Positions 13,611 to 34,867 of a DNA stretch of 34,867 nucleotides are shown in pieces. Both the position numbers and the translations under genes were made by a program. The DNA lies in assembly GCA_023249225.1 (NCBI GenBank), contig JAHFDA010000029.1, positions 1 through 34,867 on the forward strand. Reading direction: 5' to 3'. Positions within the stretch are counted from its first letter, which is position 1. Every line of letters starts with the position of its first letter. The notes below the pieces were generated by a model. The model was not told the origin of the DNA. It made no database searches and saw nothing but the letters and a program-made list of their open reading frames with translations. This DNA comes from a bacterium (lineage in GTDB: Bacteria > Margulisbacteria > Marinamargulisbacteria > JAHFDA01).

Positions 13611-14645
13611 ATGTTTTATCGTCTTTCTGCTGGACGCACCGAGCTTGCCACAACTGTTGCCGATTTATTGGCGTTGAATTCCAAATCGCAAGGGTGGATG
13701 GAGGCCCTATTTGCTCGGGACAATTCAGCAAGAAAAATTCTTAGGCGTTTAGAAACCTTATTCACCGTCGCCCGCACGGCCAAGGTGGATGTATTTGCTG
13801 GGGGTCAGGCCTATCAAATCCGTTGGCGATTCTTACTTAAAAAGTTGGACCAAGCCGATCGGGTGCGCTTGCTGACGGATTATATCGGCGCTGACAAGCT
13901 GGATGAGTATGATCCATCTTGTTTGAGTCCAGCAAACGTTACGGAATTTGTGGAATGTATAGACGGAGACGAAGACGGCCAGCCGCTGGGGTGGATTTCG
14001 AATTTTTTGCAAAAGCGTCTCCAGTGGACTCCACTTACTCCGCCCCGCTTGCAAGGCGCGGAGCTACGCGCAGTACTTTCGCAACTCGGCGAAGTGCATG
14101 AAGTTCCATTGGGAAAAAACAAAAATTCCGTGGCGGTGCTGCTCAAGCTGGCAGAGGTAAAGAAGTTTTTAGGCGTTGAGGATCTGGCGGAAGTATTTGC
14201 GGGCGTAGAAGGTTTGCGTCAGGAATCCGGCGAGAAGAACGGATTTATCGCGGACGTCGACCTATACCAGCAACGCGTCCTGCTTGCTGCGATTGTAAAC
14301 GTAGGGGCAATTCATGAATTGCCCCTACATTCGTTGGGTTTTTATAATCTGCGCGGTTCACGCAAGTTATACGAGGTTTTAAGCGCCCAGGGTTTTTACG
14401 AACGGACGGGGATTTATTGGGTATGGACTGGGGAAAAGTACGAAGCGAGTTATGGGAACTCCAATACAAAAGCGGCTGAAGACCAGTATTTAGAACCGGG
14501 CATAGTAACGTTAGAAAATATTGTTAAAATTAGAGGCTCTCGGTTTGTCTTTCGCTTCGTCGGCAATGACTACTGGGGCGTCAACGTTCCTGCAAATCAC
14601 GATGAGAATGGTGGTGTCGTCGTCGGGTTTTTCGAGGACTTATGA
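13611..14645 (+). CDS. Candidate DGR target (variable) protein, family copy 1
   Basis: 344 aa; no family recognised. It is one of four paralogues in the window. The N-terminus MFYRLSAGRTELATTV is followed by a helical region, the shared core (YIGADKLDEYDPSCLSPANV, LGWISNFLQKRLQW, PLGKNKNSVAVLLKLAEVK) and a C-terminal part with GSRKLYEVLSAQGFYERTGI and YWVWTGEK. The last ~35 codons are the variable segment. Two features are private to this copy: an extra ~10 residues near position 35 (FARDNSARKI), and a 28-bp palindrome reading VGAIHELPL that replaces VAKEPRLKDV of the others. The 3' end also differs (GFFEDL instead of GGRxWTP). It is directly followed by an avd-like remnant, the gene order of a DGR locus. 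Function inferred: a ligand-binding protein whose tail is diversified. Confidence 0.8.
   Translation: MFYRLSAGRTELATTVADLLALNSKSQGWMEALFARDNSARKILRRLETLFTVARTAKVDVFAGGQAYQIRWRFLLKKLDQADRVRLLTDYIGADKLDEYDPSCLSPANVTEFVECIDGDEDGQPLGWISNFLQKRLQWTPLTPPRLQGAELRAVLSQLGEVHEVPLGKNKNSVAVLLKLAEVKKFLGVEDLAEVFAGVEGLRQESGEKNGFIADVDLYQQRVLLAAIVNVGAIHELPLHSLGFYNLRGSRKLYEVLSAQGFYERTGIYWVWTGEKYEASYGNSNTKAAEDQYLEPGIVTLENIVKIRGSRFVFRFVGNDYWGVNVPANHDENGGVVVGFFEDL
14290..14335. repeat. Perfect 28-bp palindrome inside copy 1
   Basis: GTAGGGGCAATTCA is followed at once by its exact reverse complement TGAATTGCCCCTAC (centre near 14317). Copies 2 and 3 have ordinary coding sequence at the same place. The palindrome is read in frame as VGAIHELPLH, which I recognise as the translation of a dispersed palindromic repeat seen in many bacterial genomes. 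Confidence 0.8.
14535..14642 (+). other. Candidate DGR variable region of copy 1
   Basis: Aligned codon by codon with copies 2 and 3, this segment (GSRFVFRFVGNDYW... onward) differs at nearly every second codon, mostly at positions 1-2, whereas the preceding ~290 codons are strongly conserved. Fixed anchor residues are F-V-x-R-x-V, W, P and G-G-V. It is the most diverged of the three, including a different final heptapeptide, so it may no longer be active. Confidence 0.6.
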
Positions 14646-14711: not shown

Positions 14712-15028
14712 ATGGTTGAAAATAGCAGACAGCAGACAGCAGACAGCAGACAGCAGACAGCAGACAGCAGACAGCAGACAGCAGACAGCAGACAGCAGAC
14801 AGCAGACAGCAGACAGCAGAAGCATCTCTTTTAAAGATTGAGCTGGGCAAACAAAGCCCTGCGATCATTGCAAAGTATTATGAGTTTTTGAAATGGATCA
14901 TGGGCCGAGTGGCCCGGTTTCCTCGATTGCATCGGTATGTTTTTGGCAAGCAACTCGAAGACAAGGCTTTGTTTATCCTCGATCATCTGGTGTTTGCCTT
15001 GCCTTTAACTTGCAACCATAATCCCTGA
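14712..15028 (+). pseudogene. Truncated, out-of-frame avd-like gene (DGR accessory four-helix-bundle protein)
   Basis: ATG GTT GAA AAT at 14712 leads straight into a 97-bp heptamer tract; this frame stops at 14832. In another frame, 14837-15028 reads IELGKQSPAIIAKYYEFLKW, then IMGRVARFPRLHRYVFGKQL and EDKALFILDHLV. This matches the first two helices of the Avd/bAvd family (pattern P-x-I-x-x-x-Y-D/E-x-x-K-W ... FPR-x-H-R/K-Y/F-x-x-G). Avd is a ~110-130 aa basic barrel-forming protein that binds the DGR reverse transcriptase. Here the homology ends after helix 2 (FALPLTCNHNP then TGA), so the C-terminal half is missing. The position right after a variable-protein gene is the canonical one for avd. 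Family assignment is from memory of the pattern. Confidence 0.65.
14724..14820 (+). repeat. Perfect heptanucleotide tandem repeat, AGCAGAC x 13.9
   Basis: Thirteen complete AGCAGAC units plus six bases, without a mismatch by my reading. It begins four codons after an ATG (14712) and ends just before the avd-like frame. Since seven is not a multiple of three, each unit gained or lost shifts the frame; one more unit would join the ATG to the avd-like frame with no stop between. The tract itself has no stop in any plus-strand frame. Confidence 0.95.
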
Positions 15029-15029
15029 C

Positions 15030-15140
15030 ATGCGTAATTTCGAAAATATCGTCGATGCCGCCCAGCACAGGGGCGCCAGCGATATTCACATTCATCTTTG
15101 CCACATACCAGGCACAGCGGCAGGGCCGCATGCGAGCTAG
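15030..15140 (+). pseudogene. Truncated N-terminus of a second GspE/PilT-type ATPase
   Basis: 36 codons reading MRNFENIVDAAQHRGASDIH and IHLCHIPG, then TAG. It matches the first 22 residues of the ATPase gene at 15342 (MLSFDNLVRIAKEQHASDIHIH) and the general L-x-x-A-x-x-x-x-A-S-D-I-H start of secretion ATPases, then turns into hairpin-rich sequence. It starts one base after the avd-like stop. Either a partial duplication or the stub of a diverged paralogue. Confidence 0.6.
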
Positions 15141-15165
15141 ACATATGCGCTTTTTTTCTAAGCAT

Positions 15166-15259
15166 GCAGGCAGGGCCTGCGTGTTCTGAAGCCCCCAGGC
15201 CTTGCCTGGCTTAGAAGTGGAATGCCCTCTGTCCAGCTCCCAGTGGCCCTGCCACTGGG
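15166..15259. repeat. Three consecutive 3-nt-loop hairpins
   Basis: GCAGGC-AGG-GCCTGC (15166-15180), CCAGGC-CTT-GCCTGG (15195-15209) and CCCAGTGGC-CCT-GCCACTGGG (15239-15259); all stems perfect. They share an AGC(N)CCAG...CTGGGCTT-like frame but differ in the stem, with compensating changes on both arms. This is a palindromic repeat family; a fourth relative (CCCAGGGC-AAC-GCCCTGGG) follows copy 2. The stretch 14646-15341 holds no intact gene: only the avd-like and ATPase remnants, the heptamer tract and these hairpins. Confidence 0.8.
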
Positions 15260-15341
15260 CTTACGAACAACGGTAGGGCTGAATATTACATACAAAGACA
15301 ATTTTGCTGATTTTGTTGAATACCGTTTTCGATAATCCATT

Positions 15342-16277
15342 ATGTTGAGCTTTGATAACCTGGTACGCATCGCCAAGGAGCAGCATGCCAGCGATATTCA
15401 CATCCATCCGCGCGCGCAAGGCGCAGACATCAGTGTGCGTGTTCAAGGTCGCTTACAGGCTTTGCAAAGTTGTTCGCTGACCGAAGCCGAGCGCTTGCTG
15501 GCCCAGGTGCGTGTGGCCTGTGGTCTGGACGTGTCGGTACGGCAGTTGCCGCAGGACGGCCGTTTTCAGCTGGCAGAGGGCATCAGCGGACGCGTGTCGC
15601 TTTTGCCTACCCTGCATGGTTCGGCTTGCGTGGTGCGTTTGTTTGAACTCTTGTCAGCGCCATCACTCGAGGTTTTGGGATTTTCGGCAGCGCAAGCGCA
15701 GTGTTTGCAACAGTGTGTGTCTAAGCCCTTTGGACTTGTGGTGGTGGCAGGCCCCACCGGTTCCGGAAAAACCACCACGCTTTATCACCTGCTGCGGCAG
15801 GCCAAGCGTCCGGATCGGGTGTTACTTACACTCGAAGATCCGATTGAAGCCGAAATAATTGAGGCCAGGCAAACGGCCTGCCGTCCAGAATTGGGTTTGG
15901 ATTTTGCCAGTGGGCTGCGAGCACTGCTACGTCAAGACCCAGACGTGATTTTGGTGGGCGAAATTCGCGATGCTGAAACCGCGCAGATGGCTGTGCGGGC
16001 GGCCCTTACGGGACATCTGGTGATGACCAGCGTGCATGCGCGCGATACCGTTGAAGTGTTGTATCGCCTGCTGGATCTGGGGGTGCCTGCGTTTCAGTTG
16101 GCGGCCACGCTTTCGTTGGCGGTGGCGCAACGCTGGGAGCATTTAAACCAGCCGCAGCGGCGTTTAAAGTTGGAAATACTTCAATATCCGGACAATCTCT
16201 TTGATATTCTGGAAACCCCCGTTGGAAGGGATGTTCTGACCCAGAAATTAGAACAATTCATAATTTCGAATTATTAA
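15342..16277 (+). CDS. Minimal GspE/ComGA-like secretion or pilus ATPase
   Basis: 311 aa. It has the core of a type II secretion / type IV pilus assembly ATPase: N2 domain start ASDIHIHPRAQGADISVRVQ, Walker A GPTGSGKTTTLY (about 135-146), Asp box LTLEDPIE, Walker B PDVILVGEIRD (about 199-209) and His box GHLVMTSVHARD. The LDLGVPAFQLAATLSLAVAQR stretch is of GspE/PilB type. It lacks the GspE N1 domain and the C-terminal tetracysteine zinc subdomain, so it is shorter than PilB (~560) or GspE (~500) and nearer ComGA. No other pilus genes are nearby, so its machine is unknown. A GATAAT lies 5 nt before the ATG, suggesting a leaderless start. Confidence 0.85.
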   Translation: MLSFDNLVRIAKEQHASDIHIHPRAQGADISVRVQGRLQALQSCSLTEAERLLAQVRVACGLDVSVRQLPQDGRFQLAEGISGRVSLLPTLHGSACVVRLFELLSAPSLEVLGFSAAQAQCLQQCVSKPFGLVVVAGPTGSGKTTTLYHLLRQAKRPDRVLLTLEDPIEAEIIEARQTACRPELGLDFASGLRALLRQDPDVILVGEIRDAETAQMAVRAALTGHLVMTSVHARDTVEVLYRLLDLGVPAFQLAATLSLAVAQRWEHLNQPQRRLKLEILQYPDNLFDILETPVGRDVLTQKLEQFIISNY

Positions 16278-18062: not shown

Positions 18063-18072
18063 GGGGTGAAGG

Positions 18073-18114
18073 CAGAAGTCAGAAGGTAGAAGTCAGAAGT
18101 CAGAAGGCAGAAGT
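18073..18114 (+). repeat. Six-unit heptanucleotide tract abutting the tsaC start codon
   Basis: Units (C/T)AGAAG(T/G) x6, the last ending at the base before the ATG at 18115. The penultimate unit (CAGAAGG) gives an AGAAGG Shine-Dalgarno 7 nt from the ATG. A shorter version is at the prmC start. The tract begins about 10 bp after the ClC stop. Confidence 0.85.
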
Positions 18115-30723: not shown

Positions 30724-31119
<396 letters not shown>

Positions 31120-31219: not shown

Positions 31220-32185
31220 ATGTTTTACCGTTTTTCTGCCCAGCGCGCTGAAATTACCCAAACCGTTCAGGGACTATTGAAACTGAAATCTGATTCCATT
31301 GGCATCGTTCAACGCTTGGAAGCCCTATTCGCCGCCGCTCGCACGGCCAAGGTGGATGTGTTTGCGGGGGACGAGACGTACCACAAACGCTGGCGCAGTT
31401 TGTTAAAGGGCTTGGAGCGGGAAGATCGTGAGCGGCTGCTTACAAATTATATCGGCGCTGACAAGCTGGATGAGTATGATCCATCTTGTTTGAGTCCAGC
31501 AAACGTTACGGAATTTGTGGAATGTGAGGACGGAGACAAAGACGGCCAGCCGCTGGGGTGGATTTCGAATTTTTTGCAAAAGCGTCTCAACTGGGCTCCA
31601 CTTACCCCTCCCCGCTTGCAAGGCGCGGAGCTACGCGCAGTACTTGCCCAACTCGGCGAAGTGCATGAAGTTCCACTGGGAAAAAACAAAAATTCCGTGG
31701 CGGTGCTGCTCAATCTGGCAAAGGTAAAAACGTTTTTGGGCGTTGAGAATCTTGCAGAAGTATTTGCGCGCGTAGAAGGCTTGCGTCAGAAATCCAGGGA
31801 GAAGAACGGATTTATCGTAGACGTCGACCTATATCAGCAACGCGCTCTTTTGGCTGCGATTGTAGCCAAGGAACCACGCTTAAAAGATGTGTTTGGCTTT
31901 TACAATCTGCAAGGTTCACGCAAGTTATACGAGGTTTTAAGCGCCCAGGGTTTTTGCGGACGGACGGGGATTTATTGGGTATGGACGGGAGAAAAACATG
32001 TTCCGGATCAAGCAGAAGATGCTTATCCGGAGCCTGAAATATTAACGTTGGATAGCATTGGTGAAATTAGAGATGGACACTTTGTCTGCCGCTGCGTCGA
32101 CTCTGGCCGCTGGAACGGCAGTCGCCCTGCGGATCGCGTTGACGGTGGGGGCGTTGTGCTTGGTGGTCGGGGTTGGACTCCATAG
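31220..32185 (+). CDS. Candidate DGR target (variable) protein, family copy 2
   Basis: 321 aa. Family member with the shared core; 78 bp (31448-31525) are identical to copy 1 at 13881-13958, silent sites included. Residues ~50-65 differ from the other copies (GDETYHKRWRSLLKGLERED in place of GGQAYQIRWR.LLKKLDQAD), which marks a recombination patch. The C-terminal part has RTGIYWVWTGEKHVPDQAED and the variable tail FVCRCVDSGRWNGSRPADRV, ending GGRGWTP. No signal peptide or membrane segment is seen, so the protein is probably cytoplasmic unless exported by another route. The first ~215 residues look mostly helical; the tail may be a C-type-lectin-like fold (inference). Confidence 0.8.
   Translation: MFYRFSAQRAEITQTVQGLLKLKSDSIGIVQRLEALFAAARTAKVDVFAGDETYHKRWRSLLKGLEREDRERLLTNYIGADKLDEYDPSCLSPANVTEFVECEDGDKDGQPLGWISNFLQKRLNWAPLTPPRLQGAELRAVLAQLGEVHEVPLGKNKNSVAVLLNLAKVKTFLGVENLAEVFARVEGLRQKSREKNGFIVDVDLYQQRALLAAIVAKEPRLKDVFGFYNLQGSRKLYEVLSAQGFCGRTGIYWVWTGEKHVPDQAEDAYPEPEILTLDSIGEIRDGHFVCRCVDSGRWNGSRPADRVDGGGVVLGGRGWTP
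32072..32182 (+). other. Candidate DGR variable region of copy 2
   Basis: Against copy 3, I count 17 amino-acid-changing codons in this stretch. In 14 of them the third base is the same, and in six both first and second bases changed (TGC/GAC, TCT/GGT, CGC/TAC, AAC/TTC, AGT/GTT, GTT/CAT). Nearly all variable codons end in C or T. The segment ends at a shared TGGACTCCATAGCCC, a possible IMH-like anchor. The 200 bp just before it differ mostly at silent sites. Confidence 0.7.
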
Positions 32186-32286: not shown

Positions 32287-33057
32287 ATGTTGAGCGATGA
32301 TGTTATCAACGAGGTTGTGAATCGGGTCAAACGTGTGGCCAACCCGCAAAAGATTATATTGTTCGGCAGTTATGCCAGGGGGAGGGCAACATCGGAGAGT
32401 GATTTGGATTTGTTGGTCATTAGCGAATCCGAATTGCCACGTTATAAACGGGCGGCACCCATTTACCAGGCTTTGAGCGATATGCTTTATCCCATGGATA
32501 TTTTGGTGTATAGCTCTTCAGAAGTTCATGAATGGAGCCAGGTTCCGCAGGCTTTTGTGACCACGGCCATGCGTGAAGGCAAAGTGTTGTATGAAAAAAA
32601 ACATGATCTGGTGCAGTTATGGCTTCGCAAGGCCGAAAGCGATTTAGCCCGCACTATTCATACCTTCTTGTAGCGGGCTCCCGTGTGTAGGTATCCGCTT
32701 CATATGCATGAATAATCCGGGTTAGAAAACGCCCAAATTTGCCTTGAAGCCGGACGTGTTTTAGATACAGTTTGTTTTCATGCCCAGCAGGCTGCCGAAA
32801 AAGCCATCAAGGGTTTTTTGTGCCACAAAGAAATAGAGTTTCCGCACGTGCATAACCTGGAAAAACTCATTGAATTATGTGCGACCAAAGATCCGGATTT
32901 CCATTCGATCCAGCGCTTGTGCGCAGAACTGACGCCCTATGCCGTCGAACTAAGGTATGACGGCGACTTTTGGCCGGATCTTGCGACGGCGGAACAGGCG
33001 GTTGAGGCAGCGCGTCGAATTAAAGATTTTGTTTCCAGACAGTTGTTGCTCGGATAG
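32287..33057 (+). pseudogene. MNT-HEPN fusion gene interrupted by a 78-bp element
   Basis: The first part (32287-32673) is a minimal nucleotidyltransferase: KIILFGSYARGRATSESDLD has the GS...D-x-D active site (about residues 22-41), with a later Asp in LYPMDILVY. The frame runs on into the HEPN start VQLWLRKAESDL and then hits TAG. After the element the same frame resumes with ENAQICLEAGRVLDTVCFHA, QQAAEKAIKGFL and runs to 33057. Removing 78 bp restores one 230-aa protein. MNT and HEPN proteins normally form antitoxin-toxin pairs as separate genes; here they appear fused. The HEPN R-x4-6-H RNase motif is not evident (ELRYDGDF). The MNT part may still be made alone. Confidence 0.8.
32647..32724. 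mobile_element. 78-bp palindromic element inside the HEPN domain
   Basis: The ends GCCCGCACTATTCATAC and, inverted, ACCCGGATTATTCATGC match at about 13 of 17 positions. A TTA is present on both sides (32644-32646 and 32722-32724), consistent with a target duplication. Precise loss of 78 bp joins GAT TTA to GAA AAC and restores HEPN. A solo end of the same sequence is at 24637-24651. Confidence 0.8.
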
Positions 33058-33123: not shown

Positions 33124-34089
33124 ATGTTTTACCGTCTTTCTGCCCAGCGTGCTGAAATTGCCCAAACCGTTCACGGATTATTGGACTCAAATTCTGCTGC
33201 CGGAAATATCGTCGAGCGCTTGGAAACCTTATTTGCCACTGCCCGCGAAGCCAAGGTGGATATATTTGCCGGTGATCAGGCCTATCAAATCCGTTGGCGA
33301 TTCTTACTTAAAAAGTTGGACCAAGCCGATCGGGTGCGCTTGCTGACGGATTATATCGGCGCTGACAAGCTGAATGAGTATGATCCATCTTGTTTGAGTC
33401 CAGCAAACGTTACGGAATTTGTGGAATGTATTGGCGGAGATGAAGACGGCCAGCCGCTGGGGTGGATTTCGAATTTTTTGCAAAAGCGTCTCCAGTGGAC
33501 TCCACTTACCCTGCCCCGCTTGCAAGGCATGGAGCTACGCGCATTACTTGCCCAACTCGGTGAAGTTCACAATGTTCCACTGGGAAAAAACAAAAATTCC
33601 GTGGCGGTGCTGCTCAAGCTGGCAGAGGTAAAAACGTTTTTGGGCGTTGAGAATCTTGTAGAAGTATTTGCGCGCGTAGAAGGTTTGCGACAGGAATCCG
33701 GCGAGAAGAACGGATTTATCATGGACGTCGACCTATACCAGCAGCGCGCTCTTCTGGCTGCGATTGTGGCGAGAGAACCGTGTTTGAAAGACGTGTTTGG
33801 TTTTTACAATCTGCGTGGATCACGCAAGTTATACGAGGTTTTAAGCGCCCAGGGTTTTTACAAGCGGACAGGGATTTATTGGGTATGGACTGGAGAAAAA
33901 CATGTTCCGGATCAGGCAGAAGATGCCTATCCGCAACCTGGAATATTGACGCTAGATAGCATTGGTGAAATTAGAGAGAGCCTCTTTGTCTACCGTGACG
34001 TCGGCGGTGACTACTGGTTCGGCGTTCGCCCTACGGATCGCCATGACCGCGGGGGCGTCGCGTTTGGTGGCCGTGATTGGACTCCATAG
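33124..34089 (+). CDS. Candidate DGR target (variable) protein, family copy 3
   Basis: 321 aa, same length as copy 2. It shares the GDQAYQIRWRFLLKKLDQAD patch with copies 1 and 4 but the C-terminal half with copy 2 (RTGIYWVWTGEKHVPDQAED). The core segment differs from copies 1 and 2 by a single base over 78 bp (D to N). The variable tail reads FVYRDVGGDYWFGVRPTDRH and ends GGRDWTP. No signal peptide or TM segment is seen. Being the same length as copy 2 and uninterrupted, it looks functional. It follows the broken MNT-HEPN gene after 66 bp, most of which is the family leader. Confidence 0.8.
   Translation: MFYRLSAQRAEIAQTVHGLLDSNSAAGNIVERLETLFATAREAKVDIFAGDQAYQIRWRFLLKKLDQADRVRLLTDYIGADKLNEYDPSCLSPANVTEFVECIGGDEDGQPLGWISNFLQKRLQWTPLTLPRLQGMELRALLAQLGEVHNVPLGKNKNSVAVLLKLAEVKTFLGVENLVEVFARVEGLRQESGEKNGFIMDVDLYQQRALLAAIVAREPCLKDVFGFYNLRGSRKLYEVLSAQGFYKRTGIYWVWTGEKHVPDQAEDAYPQPGILTLDSIGEIRESLFVYRDVGGDYWFGVRPTDRHDRGGVAFGGRDWTP
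33976..34086 (+). other. Candidate DGR variable region of copy 3
   Basis: Partner of 32072-32182 in the comparison described there. Fixed residues shared with copy 2 are F-V-x-R-x-V, W, G, R-P-x-D-R-x-D, G-G-V, G-G-R and W-T-P; the residues between vary. After the stop come short inverted repeats TCCGC-CCGT-GCGGA (34103-34116) and GCGC-TTAAG-GCGC (34118-34130). Confidence 0.7.
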
Positions 34090-34660: not shown

Positions 34661-34867
34661 ATGTTTTACCGTCTTTCTGCCCAGCGTATTGAAATCACCA
34701 AAACCGTTCAGGGACTATTGAAACTGAAATCTGATTCCATTGGCATCGTCCAACGCCTGGAAACCTTATTCACCGCCGCCCGCACGGCCAAGGCGGATGT
34801 ATTTGCCGGGGGTCAGGCCTATCAAATCCGTTGGCGATGCTTGCTTAAAAAGTTGGACCAAGCCGAT
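34661..34867 (+). CDS. Candidate DGR target protein, family copy 4, cut by window edge
   Basis: 69 codons visible: MFYRLSAQRIEITKTVQGLL... It is a mosaic: residues ~12-35 (TVQGLLKLKSDSIGIVQRLE) follow copy 2, while residues ~47-69 (DVFAGGQAYQIRWR, LLKKLDQAD) follow copies 1 and 3. Whether it has a variable tail, and whether avd, a template repeat and a reverse transcriptase follow, lies outside the window. Confidence 0.75.
   Translation, partial: MFYRLSAQRIEITKTVQGLLKLKSDSIGIVQRLETLFTAARTAKADVFAGGQAYQIRWRCLLKKLDQAD

Follow-up and report, generated by a model that had tools for sequence, protein, structure and literature searches.

The window analysed here, a stretch of 34,867 nucleotides from a bacterial contig, carries on its forward strand a gene for a protein with a variable tail and, directly behind it, a short open frame that resembles the beginning of avd, the gene for the accessory protein of diversity-generating retroelements (DGRs). 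The features around this frame, together with the further copies of the variable-protein gene in the window, are the following:

13611-14645, forward strand: variable-protein gene copy 1, the DGR-type target, of 344 aa (family match).
14539-14608, forward strand: variable region (VR) of copy 1 (comparison with the sibling copy on contig C14).
14646-14660, forward strand: last part (3' tail) of the block with VR homology, GGCCTTTGGTACTTG; the C14 copy has the same sequence.
14712-14714, forward strand: ATG, probably the start codon of avd at one time, but not in the avd frame as assembled.
14724-14820, forward strand: (AGCAGAC)13.9 array, which separates the avd body from the probable former start.
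14837-15028, forward strand: avd relic, helices 1-2 only, with a homology core at 14861-14992 (NF033474 match, own profile, helix prediction).
15030-15096, forward strand: partial copy of the T2SSE ATPase gene's 5' end, the gene itself starting at 15342 (MRNFENIVDAAQHRGASDIHIH / MLSFDNLVRIAKEQHASDIHIH).
15090-15289, no strand assigned: dispersed hairpin-rich element of ~200 bp, with 13 further copies in the genome at 90-97% identity.
31220-32185, forward strand: second variable-protein gene of the window, with a VR of the GGRDWTP class.
33124-34089, forward strand: third variable-protein gene, with a VR of the GGRDWTP class.
34661-34867, forward strand: fourth variable-protein copy, cut by the contig end (family match).

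In the DGR of Bordetella phage BPP-1, a complex of reverse transcriptase (RT) and Avd copies the RNA of the template repeat (TR) with adenine errors, and the cDNA replaces the VR (PMC3240598). A footprint of such rewriting is found at the 3' end of copy 1. When this gene was compared with its closest sibling, on contig C14, 19 of the 70 VR positions differed, 17 of these at codon positions 1-2, while the flanks differed at only 2 of 172 positions (2/130 nt before the VR and 0/42 nt after it; Fisher p 1e-9), being identical for ~90 nt before the VR and for about 50 nt after it. This confinement of the differences to the VR is the signature of a DGR, and the assignment of copy 1 as a DGR-type target is thus strongly supported. 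It also agrees with the sequence-only reading, which had taken the presence of avd beside a gene with a variable tail as support for a DGR. The variable protein itself has no Pfam family; when its C-terminal domain was examined for a C-type lectin fold, no sequence match came up in Pfam or the PDB, and the AlphaFold model of the C-terminal domain (pLDDT about 30-45) is too unreliable for a fold search. Inside copy 1, at 14298-14331, lies a near-perfect palindrome, AACGTAGGGGCAATTCATGAATTGCCCCTACATT, which in several paralogs adds the residues NVGAIHELPLHS and has the appearance of a small palindromic element whose insertion kept the frame. Behind the VR of seven other copies, though not behind that of copy 1, a double hairpin is conserved as a short pair, in which a G-C/A-T change preserves the stem. 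These pairs may be target-site hairpins, although their stems of 4-5 bp are shorter than the 7-10 bp of the phage consensus with its GRNA loop, from which the loop differs as well (PMC3240598).

The frame at 14837-15028 translates into 63 residues, IELGKQSPAIIAKYYEFLKWIMGRVARFPRLHRYVFGKQLEDKALFILDHLVFALPLTCNHNP*, and had been read as the first two helices of Avd. Several lines of evidence bear this out. The sole NCBIfam match of the frame is NF033474, "diversity-generating retroelement protein Avd" (DivGenRetAVD), with an E-value of 2.9e-7, residues 9-52 of the relic aligning with positions 2-45 of the 104 in the profile; the score of 30.8 bits lies under the curated cut-off of 80 bits because the gene is a fragment and the cut-off is set for full-length proteins. 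The Pfam bAvd family (PF22296) matched weakly, with an E-value of 0.043. An Avd profile built from five sequences of other genomes, with the relic left out, gave the relic 61.5 bits among 16 loci of its own genome, the best score in five shuffled control sets being 4.4 bits. In addition, AlphaFold predicts two helices, at residues 8-25 and 29-54, with a pLDDT of 70. The alternative that the 63 residues belong to the S23-type (23S-IVP) four-helix family, or resemble Avd by chance, has in its favor that Avd and S23 share the four-helix bundle and that intact Avd homologs match TIGR02436, the 23S-IVP profile, weakly. The relic, in contrast, showed no TIGR02436 match at E-values up to 1 in searches with the Pfam and NCBIfam profiles, so that the better match to the 23S-IVP family that could have overturned the reading did not appear. 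Together with the NF033474 match and the distance between 61.5 and 4.4 bits, this argues against both S23 membership and chance, an explanation already contradicted by the data and considered very improbable.

The homology is limited to one half of the protein. The truly Avd-homologous stretch spans 14861-14992, some 44-50 codons, and the last residues of the frame do not resemble Avd. Homology stops near the end of helix 2, as had been proposed; of the four-helix bundle, which when complete takes up about 110-130 aa, helices 3 and 4 are missing. Since only helices 1-2 remain, the feature is labeled an avd relic rather than avd. The interval 14712-15028 is thus supported as an Avd remnant behind a true DGR-type variable gene.

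Further support for this arrangement came from relatives in the same phylum. In one of them (G031, contig C81, locus L092), a homologous variable protein (35% identity) is followed directly by a broken avd, MSRNETPEIIARYYEFLKWLKIKLAKYPRNERYVFGCEIERHALYISEH..., and then by a TR. This avd is the closest relative of the relic in the window, with 24 of 45 residues identical (53%; E 7e-19 for the pair); it ends early and seems to be frame-shifted. Of the 88 positions compared between TR and VR of that locus, 16 differ, and at 13 of these the TR has an adenine (Fisher p 1.7e-4). Adenine-specific differences are thus seen in the relative, no TR having been found in the assembly under study. The order target-avd-TR thus exists in a relative, and the window holds its first two parts; unlike in the window, the TR persists behind the broken avd. 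The intact Avd homologs of relatives stand in the order target-avd-RT, and the earlier statement that avd usually follows the target gene is in line with both arrangements. In another genome (G041, contig C41, locus L028, 693-1665), an avd is cut in the same region as the relic, with a DGR RT that lacks its N-terminus close behind; this locus is a separate decayed cassette.

The remaining avd half also seems to have lost its start. The sequence-only reading had the gene begin at ATG 14712, and indeed TTTTTAAGGTAGTA, upstream of this codon, resembles by eye the TTTTTTAGGTGGTA found before the avd ATG of L092. As assembled, however, this start does not hold: the distance from 14712 to 14837 is 125 nt, and the ATG lies out of the avd frame because the (AGCAGAC)13.9 array separates it from the body of the gene. 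No ATG, GTG or TTG stands in frame ahead of the conserved part, and the first in-frame starts, TTG 14888 and ATG 14900, fall inside helix 1. The relic is dead as assembled, being unreadable from ATG 14712 and devoid of the part beyond helix 2. The array length was read from the assembled contig and may be wrong, and the addition of one AGCAGAC unit or the removal of two would put ATG 14712 in frame with avd. This raises the alternative of phase variation, with the truncated gene encoding a functional two-helix protein and slippage of the heptamer array turning its translation on and off, a notion to which the short avd of G031 might also be thought to point. We regard it as hardly credible: half of the bundle is missing; the avd of G031 stops close to the same point but not at the same residue, with an apparent continuation in another frame, a pattern in line with independent decay; and none of the other loci read contains the AGCAGAC unit. 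The contig carries a second array of 7-bp units, GAAGTCA/GAAGGCA at 18068-18113, likewise not found in the other loci read. A shared two-helix 'mini-Avd', considered on account of early-ending matches in four genomes, was also rejected, since in G041 the avd is joined to an RT without N-terminus, the match in G038 is an S23-type protein and that in G031 seems to be frame-shifted, cases which independent decay fits better.

With the target gene directly upstream, the relic has neither TR nor RT downstream. What follows is the partial T2SSE ATPase copy and then the ~200-bp element, in which no coding potential was seen and which resembles a MITE or REP family. It had been suggested that the locus gained its hairpin repeats after the loss of the retroelement part; these repeats are confirmed as a dispersed element, which may have arrived later. 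As for the loss itself, it holds for the locus, where no TR or RT follows avd, and may or may not extend to the organism. The assembly was searched for a DGR RT (with the RVT_1 profile and with a relative's DGR RT as query), for a TR (with inferred TR-like queries of all three VR classes) and for an intact avd (NF033474, whole genome). None of the three was found: the TR-like queries returned the VRs and short chance matches, and 14861-14992 is the only NF033474 match in the whole genome, so that the search for an intact avd elsewhere, proposed by the earlier reading, came out empty. The RVT_1 search recovered the DGR RTs of two relatives (G034 and G053), which indicates that the method works, and the only RT of the genome under study is the C-terminus of a group II intron RT on contig C12, ruled out as a DGR RT by TIGR04416.

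The variable-protein family is large. About 20 matches are scattered over the 2.83-Mb genome, with open reading frames in nearly all copies. Thirteen copies bear VRs that fall into three classes, one formed by copy 1 and its C14 sibling, a second by five other copies and a third by six; about two more copies bear VRs, and those on C121 and C111 have similar tails. A second avd scrap stands behind the copy on C36 (16.5 bits, E 6e-4 with our own Avd profile). Scans of genome-contig and viral-contig collections with the relic or the variable protein (alignment query) found no relatives of either. Around the window copies, the ORFs at 30733-31119, 32287-32673 and 32818-33057 comprise one that is aspartyl-protease-like and a nucleotidyltransferase (Polbeta/NTP_transf_2) with a HEPN-like ORF, judged by eye, behind it; a similar set accompanies a copy on C12 (L023, 2011-3261), with an MntA-like nucleotidyltransferase plus RelE-like and antitoxin-like ORFs, and the DGR targets seem to sit in toxin-antitoxin-rich islands. 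In two long variable proteins of about 620-637 aa (L023:3923-5785 on C12, and L046, C6:24107-24787), the VR domain is the same but is joined to a different N-terminal part, apparently by domain grafting of the VR module.

All these observations can be integrated if 14712-15028 is what decay has left of the 5' part of avd in a DGR cassette, directly behind the target gene, a reading that we hold with high confidence. Against it count the shortness of the homologous stretch with its score under the cut-off, the lack of a TR and of a DGR RT in the assembly, and an array length that may be misassembled. As long as the cassette was intact, Avd would have associated with the RT and the template RNA; cDNA mutagenized at adenines, with an A-rich TR as its source, would then have taken the place of the VR in copy 1 and in the paralogs dispersed over the genome. 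Later, the avd at this locus would have lost helices 3-4, the heptanucleotide array at its 5' end would have broken the reading frame, and TR and RT would have gone missing from the locus. Rewriting by RT and Avd is presumed to have operated in this genome as in known DGRs, and a functional RT probably acted recently, either from elsewhere in the genome or before its own loss.

Two explanations for the fate of the DGR core, both compatible with the decayed-avd reading, have to be weighed here. According to the first, to which we give an even chance, the DGR is still alive, with avd, TR and RT on a contig that the assembly lacks; they act in trans on the dispersed targets, and only the local avd is dead. 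The VRs do look recently rewritten, given the near-identical flanks of copy 1 and its C14 sibling, and nearly all copies have open frames. The assembly, moreover, breaks at the variable genes: a contig end is found within 1 kb of 6 of the 18 family matches (8.6% expected, p 0.003), and the start of contig C49 falls exactly behind a VR tail of the GLPD class. Loss of RT and TR from the organism is therefore not proven. Yet the estimated completeness is 97%, with no DGR RT, TR or intact avd found, and in G031, listed as 100% complete, the only RT found is likewise a group II intron RT. According to the second explanation, whose chance we put a little below even, the core was lost from the lineage and the targets are leftovers, as in Treponema denticola isolates in which 2-6 target genes occur without any TR or RT (PMC4891356). 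The same failure to find a core, the truncated and frame-broken local avd and the similar state of G031, with its TR still left, are in agreement with such a loss; the fresh-looking VRs, the open frames of many copies and the contig breaks at target copies are not. A core lost and a core merely unassembled are thus close to even. As no DGR RT is present in an assembly that is itself broken at the target copies, the window is called a remnant and not a DGR. A more far-reaching possibility, which we consider rather unlikely, is a large in-trans DGR network of some 15 targets and at least three VR classes with an unassembled core, in which the broken avd would mark the original home locus and the targets would have been copied out with a piece of avd.

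The relic resembles the Avd of Bordetella phage BPP-1 (bAvd; PDB 4dwl, 8ub7) and NF033474 in its profile match over helices 1-2 and in its place directly behind the target, and differs from them in lacking helices 3-4, a usable start, and a TR or RT behind it. Several VR-bearing targets in a genome without TR and RT are known from T. denticola, where the targets are of the FGE-sulfatase type; here, they belong to another family, the copies are more numerous, the VRs fall into several classes, and a scrap of avd remains (PMC4891356). Remote targets within one genome are known in cyanobacterial DGRs, which share with this genome the many paralogous targets and the VR at the 3' end, although those genomes possess RT and TR (PMC7517822). 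The new part is modest: leftovers of this kind are already known, and this case adds a further DGR, decayed or dispersed, whose target family is without a Pfam match. The relic serves as a marker at the gene level that does not depend on the variable tails and that anchors the whole variable-gene family as DGR targets, and with it comes a further lineage that has kept many targets while its retroelement core is broken or missing. If the in-trans network existed, it would rank among the larger known ones, built on a variable-protein family without Pfam match. The target family and the avd subfamily can now serve as queries in seeking an intact cassette, and the system lets one ask whether such targets stay useful or get rewritten in trans.
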